Source of the DNA: Sulfurimonas sp.
GTDB taxonomy: Bacteria > Campylobacterota > Campylobacteria > Campylobacterales > Sulfurimonadaceae
Reading direction: 5' to 3'
DNA length: 52,651 bases
NCBI RefSeq assembly: GCF_026988655.1
Contig: NZ_JALSKT010000037.1
Location: 1-52,651, forward strand
Shown here: positions 34,793 through 42,264 of the stretch, piece by piece
Layout of the letters: every line of letters begins with the position of its first letter
Numbering within the stretch: position 1 is the first letter of the stretch
Translations under genes and position numbers: made by a program
The notes under the pieces: generated by a model
Databases searched by the model: none
Told to the model about the DNA's origin: nothing
Seen by the model: only the letters and a program-made list of their open reading frames with translations

Positions 34793-35236
34793 ATGAAAAT
34801 AATAATATTGACCTTGATGATTTTTCTAAACTTGCAGGCTAGAGAATATAAGGTAGTGTTTGATTGTAGTTCTAGCGATGCTCACTATGTTAAAAGTCGT
34901 ATGTGGTTAATAGGAAAAACGATGGATATGATTGAGAAAAAAGGCGATACTGTAAAAGCGGCATTAACATTACATGGTTCATGTGTGGCTATGGTTTCTA
35001 AAGACTTCGATATGATTGTTCCTGACGAAGAAGTCACAGAGGTACAGCAGTCACAAAAGTATCTAAAAGCGCTCTCAAAACGAAAAAATATTTCTATAAC
35101 AGTATGTGCTATGTCTTTAGCTAGCAATGCAATAGAACAATCCGAGGTATTGCCATTTATTAAAATTTCATCAAATAGTTTTCTTGATACAATTGCTTAT
35201 CAAAATGATGGTTATGCATTAATGAGTTTCAAATAG
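34793..35236 (+). CDS. Exported DsrE-family protein
   Basis: 147 residues with a short N-terminal signal (MKIIILTLMIFLNLQA). The rest resembles DsrE/DsrF-like folds: YKVVFDCSSSDAHYVKSRMW, AALTLHGSCVAMVSKDFD, and SITVCAMSLAS. Cysteines at about 25, 63 and 103 could carry sulfur. DsrE-like proteins move persulfide sulfur; a periplasmic one beside a rhodanese and sulfur transporter supports this role by context. Confidence 0.72.
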   Translation: MKIIILTLMIFLNLQAREYKVVFDCSSSDAHYVKSRMWLIGKTMDMIEKKGDTVKAALTLHGSCVAMVSKDFDMIVPDEEVTEVQQSQKYLKALSKRKNISITVCAMSLASNAIEQSEVLPFIKISSNSFLDTIAYQNDGYALMSFK

Positions 35237-35244
35237 GAAGAGTG

Positions 35245-35670
35245 ATGAAAAAAATAGTTATATTTTTATGTTTATTTGCAGGAAGTTTTCTCTTTGCAAA
35301 TGAAGCACATGATCTGGCCACAGAGTTACACTACTTAGAATCCTATAAGCAGGGAGTACAAACAGCAAAAAAAGAGCATAAACTTATGATGCTTGTAGTG
35401 GTGGAAGATGGCTGTCATTGGTGTAAAAAATTTAAACGCACAACTTTGAGTGATGAGGGTATAAAACAAGAGTTGCAGGGAGTTGTAAAAGTACTTGTAG
35501 ATCGTTATGCTAACATGCCACAAAAGTATGAGAGTAGGTTTTTTCCCATGGTCTATTTTATAGATCCTAAAACACAAAATATTTTAGTAAAATCATATGG
35601 CTATAAAACAAAAGCGCTTTTTAGACAAGAGATACAAAAAGCGACAAAAAAATTGAATAGTTTGGAGTAA
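35245..35670 (+). CDS. Periplasmic thioredoxin-fold protein
   Basis: 141 residues with a signal peptide ending about FLFANEA. The active-site motif is VVVEDGCHWCKKFKRTTL (C-x2-C with CHWC), followed by the cis-Pro region FFPMVYFID. It resembles SoxW/DUF255-like thioredoxin-related proteins, which reduce disulfides or persulfides in sulfur oxidation. ATG at 35245 is chosen over GTG at 35242. Confidence 0.8.
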   Translation: MKKIVIFLCLFAGSFLFANEAHDLATELHYLESYKQGVQTAKKEHKLMMLVVVEDGCHWCKKFKRTTLSDEGIKQELQGVVKVLVDRYANMPQKYESRFFPMVYFIDPKTQNILVKSYGYKTKALFRQEIQKATKKLNSLE

Positions 35671-35672
35671 TT

Positions 35673-36056
35673 ATGAAATATATACTACTGTTACTAATAA
35701 GTGTAATTGTACTCAATGCAAAAGATAATGAACCGCTTGTTGATGCACAGCAACATCTTATGTGGGGTGTCTGCACAGAACAAACAAACCCTGACCAGAC
35801 TTATCCTTGGAGATTTGGGAAGTCATTTTGTGATAATTCTTATAAATATGGATATAGTGATTGGCGACTACCAAGACCCCAAGAAATTCAAAAATCCATT
35901 GAAAATGGCACATTGAAAAAAATACGTCTTGGGAGTTATTGGACCTCTAGTGTTGATCCAAAAGCTCCAGAAGATAATGCTCTTGCAGTCTATTCAAATG
36001 GTCATGTTCATGCTCTTGAAGTATGCGGTGCTGCCTACGCGCTTTGCGTGAGATAA
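35673..36056 (+). CDS. Exported DUF1566-domain protein
   Basis: 127 residues: signal MKYILLLLISVIVLNAK, then a DUF1566 (Lcl C-terminal-like) fold with GYSDWRLPRPQEIQ, and SYWTSSVDP. Four cysteines (about 34, 50, 117, 123) could form disulfides. Molecular role unknown. It is 2 bp after the thioredoxin-fold gene. Confidence 0.72.
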   Translation: MKYILLLLISVIVLNAKDNEPLVDAQQHLMWGVCTEQTNPDQTYPWRFGKSFCDNSYKYGYSDWRLPRPQEIQKSIENGTLKKIRLGSYWTSSVDPKAPEDNALAVYSNGHVHALEVCGAAYALCVR

Positions 36057-36084
36057 ACAAAGATAAAAGACACAATGTATAAAA

Positions 36085-36231
36085 ATGCTTGGAAGTATTG
36101 TCGGGAGTTCTCTCTTATGGAGAAAAATTAGTAATTATAAACAGATGCTCTCTTTGAGTTTTATGTTTATGATTACTGCGTTTAGCATAGCCTTTTTTGC
36201 AGATGATGTTTATTTGTTGGATTATTATTAA
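36085..36231 (+). CDS. Possible small membrane protein or gene remnant
   Basis: In the 246-bp gap between the DUF1566 gene and the rhodanese gene there is a 48-codon ORF from ATG 36085 to TAA 36231. It reads MLGSIVGSSLLWRKISNYKQ and then a hydrophobic helix rich in Phe and Met, ending DDVYLLDYY. There is no good ribosome site. It contains one core octamer (CTGCGTTT at 36176) in the usual Thr-Ala-Phe frame. It could be a real miniprotein or the remnant of a transporter; I do not recognise a family. Confidence 0.3.
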   Translation: MLGSIVGSSLLWRKISNYKQMLSLSFMFMITAFSIAFFADDVYLLDYY

Positions 36232-36270
36232 GTTTGCAACTCAAAAGTGAGCCTATTAACAAATAAGTTA

Positions 36271-36276
36271 TATAAT
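36271..36276 (+). promoter_or_regulatory. -10 element before the rhodanese-cytochrome pair
   Basis: TATAAT, 27 bp before the ATG at 36303, with no clear -35. It suggests the rhodanese gene can be transcribed apart from the YeeE cluster. Confidence 0.4.
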
Positions 36277-36302
36277 ACTTATAAAAATTATAAGGATATT
36301 TT

Positions 36303-36764
36303 ATGAACAAGATATTGATAGCTCTTTTAGGGTTAGGTTTAACTACAGCTGTAATGGCATTTGATACAACTAAAGCAAATGAACTTAATAAGTTCTATTC
36401 TCATGCAACGCACAAGGCATTGGCACACTCAAAAACCTTTATAAAAGGTGATGCTGTGATGAAAATGTATAAAGATGGAAAAGATTTTACCATTCTTGAT
36501 GTCCGTACTGATGGTGAGGCTTCTGTTGTTGCTTTGAGTGCAAAAAATGCACTTCATATTCCTCTGAGCAAACTCTTTTTAAAACAAAATTTAGAAAAAC
36601 TTCCACTTAAAAAACCAATAGTTTTAGTATGTCACTCAGGAACAAGAGCAACCATGGCTATGGTTGGGTTAAAAGAGCTTGGGTTTAAAAATGTTCATGT
36701 ATTAAAAGGTGGGCTTATTGGTTTAGCTACAGCGGATAATCCAAAAAATGCACCATTACAATAA
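36303..36764 (+). CDS. Exported rhodanese-domain protein
   Basis: 153 residues: signal peptide to about residue 18, then a single rhodanese domain. The active-site loop is VCHSGTRATMA (Cys about 110), with FTILDVRTDGEAS and HVLKGGLIGLA. It would bind sulfane sulfur in the periplasm. It abuts the cytochrome gene (no gap), suggesting a coupled function. Confidence 0.88.
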   Translation: MNKILIALLGLGLTTAVMAFDTTKANELNKFYSHATHKALAHSKTFIKGDAVMKMYKDGKDFTILDVRTDGEASVVALSAKNALHIPLSKLFLKQNLEKLPLKKPIVLVCHSGTRATMAMVGLKELGFKNVHVLKGGLIGLATADNPKNAPLQ

Positions 36765-37466
36765 ATGATGTATAAATCTCTTTTTCTTGCGACTCTCGTA
36801 GTTTTTAGTGGTTGTGCGCAGCAGGAACATCATTCAAATCTTGATGGTAAAAAGCTTTTAGAACAAAAATGTTCTCAGTGTCACAATACTGACTTACCAC
36901 CGAAGACTTTTGCCGATGAAAAAGCACCGCCTATGATGGCTGTTGCTTTTCATATAAAAGATTTTATTCATGCGAGTAGTGAGAGTGATAAGATTCCAAA
37001 GGCGATAGAATTTGTCAAGGATTATGTAGTAAATCCAAGTGCTTCAAAATCTTTTTGTGATAAACAAAGCCTTAAAGAGTACGGTGTTATGCCTTCACAA
37101 AAAGGTAAAGTAACGCAAGATGAGCTTCAAGCTATAGCTGAGTATATGTTTTCACACTACACCTTACAAAATCTCACTCAAGCACAAATGCTAGAAAACA
37201 GACTTGCAAAAATGCCAAAAGGAAAACGACTTGCTTTGCAAAACGGATGTTTGAGTTGTCATAAGATAAACAAAGATTTAGTCGGTCCGTCTTTTCATAC
37301 AATTGCCAAACGGTACGATGGTAAAATGACCACTATTGAGCAAAGTATAAAAAATGGTTCTTCTAATAAATATAAAACTTCACGCGGTGCAGTAATGCCT
37401 GCTTTTGCTAAAAAGATAAGTGATCAAGATATAAAAGTATTGAGTGAGTGGATTGTACAGAGATAA
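36765..37466 (+). CDS. Diheme cytochrome c lipoprotein
   Basis: 233 residues. The signal ends in a lipobox (VVFSGCAQQ, Cys about 17). Heme 1 is CSQCH (about 36-40) and heme 2 CLSCH (about 162-166), each in a class I-type domain; Met ligands are likely in YGVMPS and GAVMPAF. Domain 1 resembles the N-terminal domain of the cytochrome-EF-hand protein at 50193. It directly follows the rhodanese gene. Confidence 0.9.
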   Translation: MMYKSLFLATLVVFSGCAQQEHHSNLDGKKLLEQKCSQCHNTDLPPKTFADEKAPPMMAVAFHIKDFIHASSESDKIPKAIEFVKDYVVNPSASKSFCDKQSLKEYGVMPSQKGKVTQDELQAIAEYMFSHYTLQNLTQAQMLENRLAKMPKGKRLALQNGCLSCHKINKDLVGPSFHTIAKRYDGKMTTIEQSIKNGSSNKYKTSRGAVMPAFAKKISDQDIKVLSEWIVQR

Positions 37467-37508: not shown

Positions 37509-37537
37509 TTGACTTATGAACATATGCCCGCTATAAT
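37509..37537 (+). promoter_or_regulatory. Strong promoter with palindromic half in the spacer, leaderless start
   Basis: TTGACT (37509-37514), a 17-bp spacer containing GAACATATG (37518-37526), and TATAAT (37532-37537). The ATG of the MFS gene is 7 bp after the -10, where transcription would begin. Confidence 0.65.
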
Positions 37538-37543
37538 TCGCAG

Positions 37544-38686
37544 ATGAAAAAGAATTTAATAGTAACAGTTTCTCTTGCACATTTAGTGCAAGATACTTAC
37601 TCCGCGTTTTTAGCACCCATTTTGCCTTTGCTTATTGAAAAGCTTGGTTTATCACTTGTGATGAGTGCATTTTTAGATATTGCACGTAAGCTTCCTTCAT
37701 TACTTAACCCTTATTTTGGACTTTTGGCAGAGAGAAGAGATGCTCGGTATTTTGTGATATTGTCTCCCTCTTTGAGTGCTTTTAGTATGTCTTTGTTAGG
37801 TGTAGCAGATAATTATGTCATTTTAATTTTTCTTCTTGTTTTGGCTGGCATTAGTTCAACGCTCTTTCATATACCCTCTCCGGGAATGATAAAAGCATCA
37901 GCAGGTGATAAACTTGGTCGTGGTATGAGTTTTTATATGGTTGGTGGAGAGCTAGCTAGAACGCTGGGACCTTTGCTTATCACGGGTGGTATCTCTTTGT
38001 GGGGGCTAGAGGGAACATGGCGACTGATGCCTTTTGGTTTTGTAGCATCAATCATTTTGTACTATAAACTCAAAGATTTTCAATTTACGCAAACAAGCTT
38101 TACAAAAAAGAGAGAAAAGGGCGACAGCTGGCGTGAGCTTAAAAAGTTCATTCCTCTTTTGGGTGTGATGAGTGGATTTATGTTTTTTCAATCAGCTATG
38201 AAGATGGCAGTCACACTCTACCTTGCCGTCTATCTCACCGGACACGGATTTTCATTGTGGTATGCAAGTGCTGCATTATCAGTTTTACAATTTTTTGGGG
38301 TTGTTGGAACTTTTCTTTCAGGTAATCTCTCAGATAAATTTGGCAGGCAAAGAACCTTAGTTTTTATGTCGAGTGGAGCCGCATTAACTATGAGTGCATT
38401 TTTATTTGCAGATACTGTTTATACAGTTTTTCCACTTTTGGCACTACTTGGAATTTTTATGTTTGCAAATGGACCCATTATGCTTTCAGTGATCCATGAG
38501 TTAGATACAAAAATGCCGACTTTTATCAACAGTGTCTATATGAGTATTAATTTTAGTATTAGCTCTATAGTAGTTTTACTGATGGGATTTTTTGGGGATG
38601 TTATAGGGCTTGATGCAACATATGAAATTGCAACTGTCATGGCTTTTATTGCTATTGCTTTCGCATTTAATATAAAAAAAGCTTGA
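37544..38686 (+). CDS. MFS transporter, probably leaderless
   Basis: 380 residues with twelve membrane helices. The first starts right after the N terminus (MKKNLIVTVSLAHLVQDTYS), so the ATG at 37544 is needed. The motif GNLSDKFGRQRTL at about 265-278 is a standard MFS loop. It is similar in general form to fosmidomycin-resistance/YfcJ-like drug or metabolite exporters; substrate unknown. It has no ribosome site and the ATG sits at the predicted transcription start. The stop codon overlaps the next promoter's -35. Confidence 0.82.
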   Translation: MKKNLIVTVSLAHLVQDTYSAFLAPILPLLIEKLGLSLVMSAFLDIARKLPSLLNPYFGLLAERRDARYFVILSPSLSAFSMSLLGVADNYVILIFLLVLAGISSTLFHIPSPGMIKASAGDKLGRGMSFYMVGGELARTLGPLLITGGISLWGLEGTWRLMPFGFVASIILYYKLKDFQFTQTSFTKKREKGDSWRELKKFIPLLGVMSGFMFFQSAMKMAVTLYLAVYLTGHGFSLWYASAALSVLQFFGVVGTFLSGNLSDKFGRQRTLVFMSSGAALTMSAFLFADTVYTVFPLLALLGIFMFANGPIMLSVIHELDTKMPTFINSVYMSINFSISSIVVLLMGFFGDVIGLDATYEIATVMAFIAIAFAFNIKKA

Positions 38687-38726
38687 CAATCTGAACATAT
38701 GTTCGTTATAATGCGAACATATGTGC
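38683..38726 (+). promoter_or_regulatory. Strong promoter with two GAACATATGTTC-type operators
   Basis: TTGACA (38683-38688), an 18-bp spacer carrying the perfect palindrome GAACATATGTTC (38693-38704), TATAAT (38707-38712), then a second near copy GAACATATGTGC (38715-38726) over the transcription start. The same core is in the MFS promoter. The form resembles operators of ArsR/SmtB-type repressors. Confidence 0.7.
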
Positions 38727-38767
38727 ATAAAATTACAAAAGTATCGAAAAGATACGAAGGAAAAATT

Positions 38768-38929
38768 ATGAGAAATGGAAATATTTTTAATGGACGCTGT
38801 CAAGGTCAAGGTCAAGGACAAGGACGTGGACAAGGACAAAGAAATAGACGAGGACAAGGATGTGGACGTGGTCAAGGACAAGGAAATGTTAACGGCATGC
38901 AAAGAAGAAGAAATCTAGGTAATGTGTAA
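38768..38929 (+). CDS. Gly/Gln/Arg-rich miniprotein
   Basis: 53 residues, MRNGNIFNGRC followed by repeats of Gly-Gln and Gly-Arg-Gly-Gln with Cys at 11 and 32. The ATG at 38768 has AAGGA upstream; a longer in-frame ORF from 38699 would begin before the predicted transcription start. Low-complexity short proteins of this type occur beside NifX/DUF134 genes, but no function is known to me. Basic charge suggests nucleic-acid or cofactor binding as one possibility. Confidence 0.6.
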   Translation: MRNGNIFNGRCQGQGQGQGRGQGQRNRRGQGCGRGQGQGNVNGMQRRRNLGNV

Positions 38930-38939
38930 GTTTTAAAGC

Positions 38940-39716
38940 ATGGATTCGGTAAATATAGTATCAATAATAACCATAGCTTTTTTAGGATCGTTTGGGCACT
39001 GCATAGGAATGTGTGGTGGCATTGTAGTAGCATATAGTACGACGAAAATATCTGATGAGTGGAGTAAAACAAAACAATCAATTGCACATATTTTATACTC
39101 TGCTGGGCGGGTTTTAACATACACTATATTAGGGGCTATGTTTGGCTTCTTAGGTGGTGTGGCTACTTTTAACAATCTTACAAATGGCTTGATGCTTATA
39201 TTTGCCGGAATATTTATGGTTTTGGCTGGTTTATCATTATCAGGTAAAATCAAATTTCTAACGTTACTAGAGCATTCGTTTGCAAGTACTTCATGGTATA
39301 CAAAACTCTTTAGAGAACTGTTACAAACAAAATCTCTTGTAAGTTTTTTTATACTAGGGATGCTTAACGGACTACTTCCCTGTGGGCTTGTTTACTTTTT
39401 TACTATAACAGCAGCAAGTACGGCAAGCCCATTGTATGGGGCATTGGTAATGTTTATATTCGGCATTAGTACAATTCCTGCACTTTTTTCTTTAGGATTT
39501 TTTGTTGGGTTGTATAAAAATGGTAAATTTAGAAATATTATGATGACACTCGCAGCTATAAGTGTTGTGATTTTTGGAATATATACTATGCGAAATGGGT
39601 ATTATTACATAAAATATCCACAAAAAACAGTAAGTCAATGTTGTGAATTTGACCCAGATAAACAAAATAATGAAATAAAAAAGAACGATAATTTAAAGGA
39701 GATATACCAAAAATGA
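38940..39716 (+). CDS. TauE/SafE-like (DsbD/UreH-type) membrane transporter
   Basis: 258 residues, six helices. Signatures: GSFGHCIGMCGGIVVAYS (Cys pair at about 21-25) and NGLLPCGLVYFF (about 147-158), typical of the sulfite-exporter TauE/SafE subfamily that also includes UreH/DsbD-like metal or electron transporters. A C-terminal tail holds CCEFDPDK. Whether it moves metal, sulfite or reducing equivalents is open. It overlaps the NifX-like gene by 4 bp. Confidence 0.8.
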   Translation: MDSVNIVSIITIAFLGSFGHCIGMCGGIVVAYSTTKISDEWSKTKQSIAHILYSAGRVLTYTILGAMFGFLGGVATFNNLTNGLMLIFAGIFMVLAGLSLSGKIKFLTLLEHSFASTSWYTKLFRELLQTKSLVSFFILGMLNGLLPCGLVYFFTITAASTASPLYGALVMFIFGISTIPALFSLGFFVGLYKNGKFRNIMMTLAAISVVIFGIYTMRNGYYYIKYPQKTVSQCCEFDPDKQNNEIKKNDNLKEIYQK

Positions 39717-40087
39717 AAATAGTTTTAGCAGTAGATGAAGATAAAAAAACAATAGTAAAAAGAACAGGGCAAAGTGCTTATTTTGCAATTTATGAAGATG
39801 ATAAACTTGTTGATTTAGTTCCAAACAAACACCATGATGGAGGGCATCATGCCCACAGAGAGCATGAAGAACATGATCACTCTGAGATGGGACATGAAGA
39901 GCATACAAACTCTCATAGAAAAGATGTTGCAGCCTTGAAAGATTGTGATATTATTTTAGTACAAGCTGTTGGTGAAAATATGAAAGAGGCACTGGAATCT
40001 ATTGATCTAAAAGTTAAAAAAATACGACAAAAACATGGCACAACGGCAGATGAGGTTGTTGCTAACTTTTTAAATGGCAATATTTAG
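39713..40087 (+). CDS. NifX/NifB-like (Fe-Mo cluster-binding) protein with His-rich insert
   Basis: 124 residues. The ends match the dinitrogenase iron-molybdenum cofactor fold: MKIVLAVDEDKKTI and DCDIILVQAVGENMKEAL, HGTTADEVVANFL. An insert at about 38-65 has about ten His (KHHDGGHHAHREHEEHDHSE), pointing to metal binding. No nitrogenase genes are seen, so it probably handles another metal cofactor. ATG overlaps the TauE stop. Confidence 0.82.
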   Translation: MKIVLAVDEDKKTIVKRTGQSAYFAIYEDDKLVDLVPNKHHDGGHHAHREHEEHDHSEMGHEEHTNSHRKDVAALKDCDIILVQAVGENMKEALESIDLKVKKIRQKHGTTADEVVANFLNGNI

Positions 40088-40095
40088 GTGAGAGT

Positions 40096-40383
40096 ATGAG
40101 TCCAAGAAGAGTTGTTCAAAGACATATAGATGCAGATCATAGTGGTATCTGTTTTAAACCTTGTGGTATTAAAAGAGCAAACCTTGAGAGAGTAGAGCTT
40201 TTTGAAGATGAGATGGAAGCTATTCGCTTGGCTGATTTTGAAGGGCTTTACCAACAAGAGTGTGCTGATAAGATGGGCATCTCACGAACAACTTTTTCAA
40301 GGCTTATAGAATCAGCAAGAAAAAAAACAGCAGATGCACTGCTACATACAAAAGCATTAAGAATTTTTAAAGAGGATGAATGA
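40096..40383 (+). CDS. DUF134-family DNA-binding protein
   Basis: 95 residues with a sigma-70-region-4-like HTH: YQQECADKMGISRTTFSRLI (about 54-73). Conserved Cys in HSGICFKPCGIKR (about 20-25) may bind a metal or cluster. DUF134 genes are often next to NifX-type genes, as here. It is a possible regulator of its own unit. Confidence 0.85.
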   Translation: MSPRRVVQRHIDADHSGICFKPCGIKRANLERVELFEDEMEAIRLADFEGLYQQECADKMGISRTTFSRLIESARKKTADALLHTKALRIFKEDE

Positions 40384-40949
40384 TGAAAAAAATTATAGTA
40401 TCAACAGTCGTTGTAGCGATGAGTGCTACATTTTTAAGTGCAACAACAAACCAAGAGATAAAACAAGAGGCAAAAGCTGCCATTATGAAGATGGGTAAAA
40501 CACTTCAAATGCATATGAAACAAAACATGAAAGCAGGTGGACCAGTCCAAGCCGCAGCATTTTGTTCTGACAAAGCTAGAGGCATTGCCAAAGAAGTAAA
40601 TGCAGGGTATGAAAAAGGTGTTTCAGTCAAAAGAATCTCTCTAAAATACAGAAACCAAACAGACAAACCAACAGCAGATGAAGCAAAGGTTTTACAAGAG
40701 TTACATACTGCGTTTGACACAAAAAACTCTCTTCCAAAAATGCTTGTTAAAGAAGTAGGTAAAAATCATTATAAAGTTTACAAACCAATTTTCATAAACA
40801 AAGGTGTTTGTCTCACTTGTCATGGCACAAATGACGTAAGAGATGAAGAAGCATATAAACTTATAAAAGCAAAATATCCAAATGACAAAGCAGTTGGATA
40901 TAAAAAAGGCGATCTTAGAGGTGCTTTTGTTGTTGATATTGTAAAATAG
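40380..40949 (+). CDS. DUF3365-type heme protein (Tll0287-like)
   Basis: 189 residues: signal peptide to about 22, then a helical sensor-type domain and a single heme site KGVCLTCHGTND (about 141-152). FCSDKARGIAKEVN and YRNQTDKP are family features. It is a periplasmic cytochrome-like redox protein, perhaps sensing redox state. It overlaps the DUF134 gene by 4 bp; ATG 40383 is an equal alternative start. The 134-bp gap after it shows a TATAAT before the antitoxin and nothing else. Confidence 0.8.
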   Translation: MMKKIIVSTVVVAMSATFLSATTNQEIKQEAKAAIMKMGKTLQMHMKQNMKAGGPVQAAAFCSDKARGIAKEVNAGYEKGVSVKRISLKYRNQTDKPTADEAKVLQELHTAFDTKNSLPKMLVKEVGKNHYKVYKPIFINKGVCLTCHGTNDVRDEEAYKLIKAKYPNDKAVGYKKGDLRGAFVVDIVK

Positions 40950-41083: not shown

Positions 41084-41314
41084 ATGATAACACTTAAAAT
41101 TCAAAATCCTGAAATAGAACAGATATTTTTAGAAGGATTTAGTAGTAACAAAGAGATGTTTTTTGATTTTATAAAAGAAAACTACAATAAAATGATGTTG
41201 CTTAATAGTCTGGAAAAATCTGTATATCAAGCAAAACTCCAAAATTCAAAAGAACTAGATGAAATAAGCTTAGATGACTTAATTGCAGATGTTAAAAATA
41301 GTACCAACTCCTGA
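41084..41314 (+). CDS. Antitoxin of a RelE-type toxin-antitoxin pair
   Basis: 76 residues, acidic and helical (KNYNKMMLLNSLEKS, ISLDDLIADVKN), no known DNA-binding motif. Identified by its position: it overlaps the following RelE-like toxin by 26 bp. GAGGAAAAG precedes the ATG. Confidence 0.7.
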   Translation: MITLKIQNPEIEQIFLEGFSSNKEMFFDFIKENYNKMMLLNSLEKSVYQAKLQNSKELDEISLDDLIADVKNSTNS

Positions 41315-41624
41315 ATTTGTAAAACAGGTTAAAAAACTTGCAAAGTCTTATAATAAGATAGCCACTGACTTAGAATTGCTAAAAGAAGAATTATTATTAA
41401 ACCCAAGGCTCGGCACAGAACTTGGAAATAAATGTTTTAAAATTAGACTTGCAAATTCTTCTATTCCTACTGGTAAAAGTGGTGGTTTTAGAGTTATAAC
41501 TTATTATCTTGATCATCAAGGTGTCATCAGATTACTACTGATTTATACAAAGACACAGAAGGAAAATATTTCAGATAAAGAGTTAAGTGAAGTGCTTAGG
41601 AAGTTGAATGAAAATTCTCTTTGA
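41289..41624 (+). CDS. RelE/ParE-superfamily toxin
   Basis: 111 residues with a RelE fold pattern: PTPEFVKQVKKLAKSYNKI, CFKIRLANSSIPTGKSGGFRVITYY, and RLLLIYTKTQKENISDKEL. Members cleave mRNA in the ribosome or inhibit gyrase; which applies is not clear. ATG at 41289 is chosen over an upstream TTG. The 3' end overlaps the metallo-beta-lactamase-fold gene by 17 bp. Confidence 0.82.
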   Translation: MLKIVPTPEFVKQVKKLAKSYNKIATDLELLKEELLLNPRLGTELGNKCFKIRLANSSIPTGKSGGFRVITYYLDHQGVIRLLLIYTKTQKENISDKELSEVLRKLNENSL

Positions 41625-42264
41625 TAACTATAAAGTATGCGACAGATGCCACTCATTATGGGGTTTTAGTGCTTATTTTGAGGAGTATAAACTTCTTTTA
41701 GATACAGGGAGTAATGGGCGTGTGCTTTTGCAAAATATGCAAAAAGTGGGTGTTGATGTTCAAGAGATAGAGTACATCTTTATCACCCACTCTCATTGGG
41801 ATCACATTGGTGGCCTTGACAGTATAATAGAACTCAATCCTAATGTAACACTTTTTGTACCCGCTTCACTCTCTAAACATCTCATCAATGATTTAAAAAC
41901 TTTAGTAAAAAGTGTCATCGTCTGCGGTAAAAAACCGCAAAATCTTTTTGGAGATCTCTACACAACAGGGCTTTTGGGTGAGGAGATGCCAGAGCAGTCA
42001 CTCGTCATAGATACCCTCACGCCAACAGTAGTAACTGGATGTGGACATTTTGGCATAGAAAATATCACAAAAGTGGCTCGTGAAGTGATACAAAAAGACA
42101 TACTCTGCGTGATGGGCGGTTTTCATCTACTTCGTAGTGATGAAGAAAAGATTTTAAATACCATAAAAGTACTCAAAACAATGGGTGTCAAATATGCCAA
42201 GCCGACACACTGCACGGGAGATGAAGCCATCTCACTTTTTGCAGTAAATTTTACAGAGAATTAA
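41608..42264 (+). CDS. Metallo-beta-lactamase-fold hydrolase
   Basis: 218 residues with the zinc motif THSHWDHIGGLD (about 59-70), GCGHFGIEN and a terminal KPTHCTGDEA. The N-terminal VCDRCHSLWGFSAYFE and compact size resemble the arylsulfatase/dihydropteridine-phosphate synthase-like MBL subgroup. Substrate unknown. Its start lies inside the toxin gene, so it is translated from the toxin-antitoxin transcript. Confidence 0.8.
   Translation: MKILFDNYKVCDRCHSLWGFSAYFEEYKLLLDTGSNGRVLLQNMQKVGVDVQEIEYIFITHSHWDHIGGLDSIIELNPNVTLFVPASLSKHLINDLKTLVKSVIVCGKKPQNLFGDLYTTGLLGEEMPEQSLVIDTLTPTVVTGCGHFGIENITKVAREVIQKDILCVMGGFHLLRSDEEKILNTIKVLKTMGVKYAKPTHCTGDEAISLFAVNFTEN

Follow-up and report, generated by a model that had tools for sequence, protein, structure and literature searches.

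The locus described here, from the sulfur-oxidising bacteria of vent type, lies in a 52,651-nucleotide stretch (the window) of a Sulfurimonas genome of 1.97 Mb that is 96% complete, and appears to encode a regulon repressed by a short DUF134 protein, whose putative operator sits in the spacers of two sigma70 promoters and which is accompanied by a NifX-fold protein. Regulation by DUF134 is well supported computationally, and a DUF134-repressed regulon answering metal-sulfide or reactive-sulfur stress is the best reading overall, one that we put slightly above an even chance. Taken on its own, sulfide or metal-sulfide stress as the purpose of the unit is plausible but falls somewhat short of even. 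The geometry of operator and promoters, the co-occurrence of DUF134 with NifX and the fusions of the two can be read from the DNA sequence itself; from them we infer that DUF134 binds DNA, which signal it answers to, what cargo is handled and what purpose the unit has in the cell. In the following, L and G numbers denote the loci and genomes compared.

The Locus and Its Neighborhood

Five tightly packed genes on the + strand occupy positions 38768-40949, as an earlier note on this DNA had stated, including the two 4-bp overlaps at 39713-39716 and 40380-40383. The first ORF (38768..38929), preceded by a Shine-Dalgarno-like GAAGGA at 38756, encodes a cationic Gly/Gln/Arg miniprotein of 53 aa with two Cys and a pI of about 12. 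It is followed by a DsbD_2 membrane protein (38940..39716; PF13386, 168 bits), a NifX-fold protein in which a His-rich insert takes the position of the cofactor loop (39713..40087; PF02579), a short putative DUF134 repressor of 95 aa with a DeoR-like HTH and a CFKPC motif (40096..40383; PF02001), and a Tll0287-like c-type haem protein with one CxxCH and a signal peptide-like N-terminus (40380..40949; PF11845). The Cys-containing regulator and the haem protein had thus been recognized correctly, as had the Cys-x3-Cys and Pro-Cys motifs of the membrane protein, which are present as GHCIGMCGG and LPCGLVY. The description of this protein as TauE-like has to be dropped, since TauE/SafE (PF01925) finds no match in it and DsbD_2 is accompanied by a weak DsbD_TM match only.

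The unit had moreover been drawn too small, as its conserved neighborhood extends upstream to an MFS transporter and a dihaem cytochrome c, and the operator had been overlooked. The transporter (37544..38686, +; 380 aa; PF07690, 106 bits) has its own operator-bearing promoter and copies of 70-81% identity in L100, L101, L103, L117, L196 and L203, and a relative closes an ATPase/NifX operon in G125. The c-type cytochrome with its two CxxCH (36765..37466, +; PF13442/PF00034) has copies, 46-73% identical, beside DUF134/NifX in G009, G061, G125, L099-L104, L106, L189, L190, L196, L198 and L203, and is a recurrent DUF134 neighbor and probably part of the wider unit. An MBL-fold hydrolase (41608..42264, +; PF00753) also recurs in DUF134 neighborhoods, in looser association, with copies 60-89% identical in L098, L100, L111, L113, L190 and L196. 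The nearest set to that of the window is found in G379 (L203) and comprises MFS, DsbD_2, DUF134, MBL, Tll, TrmO and cytochrome c, with the operator 5' of the MFS gene. As to co-occurrence in other genomes, DUF134 does recur with NifX, but the exact five-gene order is not kept and the members are mixed around the DUF134/NifX core; a single conserved five-gene operon was rejected because of this reshuffling in relatives.

Further genes of the window touch on the same neighborhood. Upstream, at 34793-36764, DsrE-like, thioredoxin-like, Lcl_C-domain and rhodanese genes stand in a row with a sulfur/thiol theme, and 36085-36231 holds a remnant of a second MFS family, of about 408 aa and seen repeatedly in DUF134 operons, with 64-72% identity over 45 residues, which suggests loss or exchange of an exporter at the locus. 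Downstream, 41084-41624 contains a probable toxin-antitoxin pair, the second ORF being RelE-like (28 bits vs. a cut-off of 27) and the first having no Pfam match.

The DUF134 Protein and Its Proposed Operator

Which DNA sites might DUF134 recognize? Both promoters of the locus are near-consensus sigma70 promoters with GAACATATG(TTC) in the spacer. TTGACT-N17-TATAAT, 5' of the MFS gene (37509..37537, +), has the half-site GAACATATG at 37518-37526, and TTGACA-N18-TATAAT, 5' of the miniprotein (38683..38712, +), has the full palindrome GAACATATGTTC at 38693-38704, with a second operator copy, GAACATATGTGC, at 38715..38726 (+), 22 bp or two helical turns downstream. The half-site has 24 matches in the genome and is intergenic only at this locus, with four matches; the full 12-mer GAACATATGTTC has one exact match in the whole genome.

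The window protein belongs to the DUF134 family (PF02001, 66 bits vs. a cut-off of 27). The nearest solved relative of the DUF134 profile is Bacillus subtilis DeoR (7bhy, E 1.7e-5; ISRTTFSRLIESARKK vs. ISRPTVSRLLQYAKEK), and a fold search returned HTH matches only, none of them below E 0.001. DeoR binds as a tetramer to ATTGAACAAAATTTCAATTACCAATTTACATATGTTCAA, which contains CATATGTTCAA, and contacts bases through R34 and R39 (PMC11229326). These residues align with R64 and R69 of the window protein, which are invariant and nearly invariant, respectively, in 41 relatives. DUF134 therefore shares with the DeoR/SorC repressors the HTH, the base-contacting arginines, the operator words TTGAAC and CATATGTTCAA and the pairing of operators, but at 95 aa it lacks the C-terminal sugar-phosphate effector domain, and the operator associated with it lies inside the -35/-10 spacer. 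The cysteines of CFKPC, C19 and C23, are conserved in at least 90% of the alignment of the 41 relatives and are missing in some other phyla, so that CFKPC cannot be the sole sensor.

The tie between operator and regulator was also found in a scan that was not seeded by DUF134. The promoter-embedded site was sought in 298 Campylobacterota genomes and occurs nine times in six of them; all six encode DUF134, which is present in 43 of the 298 (p 6.6e-6), and the reversed-site control gave no match in the same scan. Two of the nine sites lie away from DUF134, in G252 and G125, the latter between divergent ATPase/NifX/MFS and DUF4405/TauE operons. In loci gathered with DUF134 as seed, 161 of 176 half-sites are located at cluster genes (scrambled 9-mers: mean 1.0, sd 1.7, max 13), an enrichment that is not independent, as many of these loci were collected through DUF134 itself. 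Relative to the site, TATAAT stands at +14 in 80/148 cases and TTGACA at -9 in 64/148, at a fixed spacing of 17 bp. Where sites are twinned, the distance is 22-23 bp in 28 pairs and 33-34 bp in 14, so that 42 of 45 pairs are separated by two or three helical turns. The operator tracks the head of the operon, whichever gene this is (MFS, miniprotein, NifX, DsbD_2, Tll or DUF134). Its core CATATG is found 5' of DUF134 in 17/22 Campylobacterota loci of other type and in 6/11 loci outside the phylum (p about 4e-6); the exact half-site is missing in 12/82 loci. DUF134 and operator are both lost in the near relative G310, and in G305 the operator is still present beside a truncated DUF134. Judged from these sequence patterns, DUF134 very likely binds the operator.

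A further DUF134 subtype occurs in L072, L075, L085, L087 and L091, with a zinc-ribbon-like C-terminal part in at least L075 and L091; most promoters of these loci contain the variant operator GCACATATGTGTATTATAAT, and ATPase/NifX genes lie downstream.

The palindrome could also have nothing to do with DUF134 and be a site for LexA (SOS) or of ArsR type, given that the Firmicute LexA box, CGAACATATGTTCG, is the same 12-mer as the operator (PMC2248561, PMC8270828). The DNA-binding domain of LexA (PF01726) is absent, however, from the six operator genomes G000, G061, G105, G125, G252 and G284, which rules out LexA as owner of the palindrome. No SOS genes follow the operator, its outer bases favor T/A over the C/G of LexA, and its variants retain CATATG while the GAAC arms change. 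The joint loss of DUF134 and site in G310 speaks against LexA and ArsR alike, and an ArsR operator was also discarded, with one clear ArsR on another contig and none in the window. We regard a site of either type as very improbable.

The NifX-Fold Protein as Probable Partner of DUF134

The NifX-fold protein is a member of PF02579 (37.4 bits vs. a cut-off of 26.3), and its AlphaFold model is matched best by 1o13 (TM1816), 2yx6, the NifX structure 9ian, NafY (1p90) and ORP (2wfb). Eleven His were counted where about ten had been reported, the insert extending over about residues 40-69, and the insert is kept in Sulfurimonas orthologs. The protein has fold and Pfam family in common with the nitrogenase cofactor carriers NifX and NafY, but the nifX equivalog falls far below its cut-off (TIGR02663, 20.6 vs. 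112 bits) and a profile search finds no nitrogenase component (PF00148) in the 96%-complete genome, in agreement with the earlier note; a role as nitrogenase NifX or in nitrogenase maturation was rejected on these grounds.

Several observations link the protein to DUF134. In a survey of 135 genomes of the genus the window-type NifX occurs in 22, DUF134 in 27 and both in 17, where 4.4 are expected (Fisher p ~9e-11), and in these 17 genomes the two genes are on a single contig and mostly adjacent. A NifX-family gene lies within 6 kb in 55 of 76 DUF134 loci. In addition, DUF134 and NifX are fused into one ORF of 222 aa in L146:564-1232 and L158:7989-8657, the latter above both Pfam cut-offs, and about half of ten long DUF134 proteins tested (about 195 aa) have a detectable C-terminal NifX domain and therefore look like fusions too. 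NifX is thus probably a functional partner or sensor of DUF134. The proposal that the genes handle a metal, iron-sulfur or haem cofactor under a regulator of their own agrees well with an operator common to regulator and unit and with this co-occurrence and these fusions.

The window genome encodes a second NifX-fold protein of 121 aa on another contig, away from DUF134 (L096:6760-7125; C54), adjoining a flavoprotein that by eye resembles NDH-2/sulfide:quinone reductase.

The Miniprotein and Related NifX-Fold Systems

What could the miniprotein contribute? Gly/Arg/Gln-rich small ORFs number 24 in 0.87 Mb of loci, and each of the 24 is at most 1.5 kb away from DUF134, ATPase or NifX genes. In loci of Nautiliales type and in some others (L058, L060, L061, L063-L065, L082, L148, L156, L170, L171) NifX itself ends in a C-terminal tail of such Gly/Arg sequence. 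Such an architecture is known from IssA of Pyrococcus furiosus, an iron-sulfur storage protein that consists of a NifX-fold domain and a cationic Gly-rich tail thought to bind anionic thioferrate, and is shared by its mesophilic relatives of the IssX clade, which the authors of the IssA study called uncharacterised (PMC5524996). The window NifX has no fused Gly-rich tail and is not an IssA member; sequence resembling the tail is encoded apart from it, in ORF 38768-38929. By composition, position and shared promoter, not by alignable sequence, NifX and miniprotein together look like a split IssA. A NifX fold (IPR003731/PF02579), a cationic Gly/Arg-rich part and sulfidic habitats are common to the window and IssA/IssX, which differ in that here the Gly/Arg part is a gene of its own, the NifX protein is rich in His and has no tail, and both are accompanied by DUF134, exporters and haem proteins.

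It could accordingly be imagined that the unit serves Fe-S or iron storage and assembly, with a split IssA storing thioferrate or feeding clusters, DUF134 sensing Fe-S status and sulfide stress being incidental. The IssA architecture (PMC5524996), seen in fused form in L060, L061, L063-L065, L082, L170 and L171, and NifU-like and ferredoxin-domain ATPase genes in the same operons would agree with such a function. Against this, the window NifX is His-rich and lacks the tail, the ATPases are missing from the window unit, and exporters such as ArsP_2, SLAC1, TauE and MFS are hard to reconcile with pure storage, making this explanation rather unlikely in our view.

The ORP complex of Desulfovibrio, including MrpORP, likewise combines NifX-fold proteins with ferredoxin/Mrp-type ATPases, as does the ATPase branch of the DUF134 loci, and carries a Mo-Cu-S cluster (PMC6345978). 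The window unit has neither these ATPases, which are present in related DUF134 loci, nor the ORP regulator; ORP genes form sigma54-dependent divergent operons, whereas the window has sigma70 -35/-10 boxes with 17-18 bp spacing and an embedded operator. The cluster of ORP, together with the eleven His of the NifX insert, is consistent with detoxification of copper or other metal(loid)s, in which the His-rich NifX would bind Cu, Zn or a thio-metal(loid), MFS/ArsP_2-type carriers would export it and DsbD_2 would aid copper handling. ArsP_2 heavy-metal exporters indeed share operons with the window-type NifX (L111/L200) and with a miniprotein (L202), and a DsbD_2 paralog adjoins a NosL-like protein of the copper-chaperone family. 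This explanation seems unlikely, as the unit lacks P-type ATPases, RND pumps and any classical metal regulator, the His-rich insert is absent from other NifX relatives (e.g., L162 and the tailed forms), and cydAB, TrmO and flavin reductase as partners would be left unexplained.

Membrane and Haem Proteins of the Proposed Regulon

DsbD_2 is near-universal in the phylum (285/298 genomes) and was rejected as a diagnostic gene; only a second copy is therefore informative. The window gene is such a second copy, the usual one lying at C18 of the same genome next to the NosL-like protein, and copies 75-83% identical to it are found beside DUF134 in L117, L120, L130 and L203. The haem protein is a member of the Tll0287-like family (PF11845, formerly DUF3365; 100 bits vs. 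a cut-off of 24.1; PDB 5b82, E 5.5e-10), with copies 60-93% identical beside DUF134 in L057, L097, L098, L105, L106 and L203. Over 81 loci, the recurrent operon members are ferredoxin-domain MinD-type ATPases (about 20 loci), cytochrome c (16), TrmO (13), the second MFS (12), NifU-like proteins (8), Tll0287 (6), SLAC1 with DUF302 (6), the 380-aa MFS (5), flavin reductase (5), cydAB (3-4) and TauE (3); DsrE, rhodanese and TusA/DUF2249-like genes are also among them. The exporters of these loci (MFS, ArsP_2, SLAC1, TauE, DsbD_2) have no single known substrate. About ten DUF134 operons, e.g., L068:7229-7372 and L071:6860-7006, encode a Cys-rich protein of 48 aa (CNNGRCINKDRC...GCKKF) that has no Pfam match.

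The same operator stands 5' of DUF4492-cydAB in L186:6154-9034 (G252, far from DUF134) and in L195:60-2990 (G334), pointing to control of cytochrome bd oxidase by DUF134; G393 has cydAB and neither DUF134 nor operator. Together with the recurrence of cytochrome c, Tll0287 and cydAB near DUF134, this arrangement could mean that DUF134 governs terminal oxidase and haem proteins in oxygen or redox control of respiration, NifX merely being its sensor. Such a role is hardly likely for the unit as a whole, since cydAB occurs in a minority of loci and neither the exporters nor the miniprotein nor the sulfur carriers belong to respiration.

A Model for DUF134 Action

How might the proposed response to metal-sulfide or reactive-sulfur stress operate? 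The DUF134 repressor, probably a dimer paired over two operators, would bind GAACATATGTTC-type sites between -35 and -10 and, seated in the spacers of the two sigma70 promoters, block RNA polymerase, thereby autoregulating its own gene and controlling MFS, miniprotein, DsbD_2, NifX and Tll0287. The signal would probably be linked to sulfide and react with thiols or metals, as reactive sulfur or metal-sulfide species do, and would be sensed by the cysteines of CFKPC and/or via the NifX partner. Release of the repressor would yield the His-rich NifX-fold binder and the cationic Gly/Arg miniprotein, which by analogy may together bind anionic metal-sulfide species, as well as the exporter, the DsbD_2 membrane protein and the periplasmic haem proteins. 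These products would bind metal-sulfide or sulfur species, carry them out of the cell and alter respiration; bd oxidase is resistant to sulfide. Searches of the accessible literature brought up no study on the expression of such genes in Sulfurimonas, Sulfurovum or Nautilia.

Implications for the DUF134 Family

The set had been called undescribed, which holds in part: NifX-fold sets of the ORP and IssA type are already known and the parts are akin to them, but searches of the literature accessible without subscription turned up neither their combination nor an operator for DUF134 or its pairing with NifX, and no paper on DUF134 function. The operator is proposed here as the first for this uncharacterised family. 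As a tentative generalization, which we consider possible but less probable than not, DUF134 may be a widespread repressor family that acts on CATATG-centered palindromes in sigma70 promoters, with a fused or adjacent NifX-fold sensor reading metal-sulfide or Fe-S cargo, and that, in several phyla, governs a response to sulfide or thiometals made up of a split IssA and exporters that can replace one another. Anaerobes and sulfur bacteria commonly encode DUF134 proteins, a culturable carrier being Thiocapsa marina (L173). The family gains a likely operator together with a regulon and a candidate for its sensor, while the NifX-fold proteins of non-nitrogen-fixers, including those of the IssX type, become tied to a dedicated regulatory circuit.
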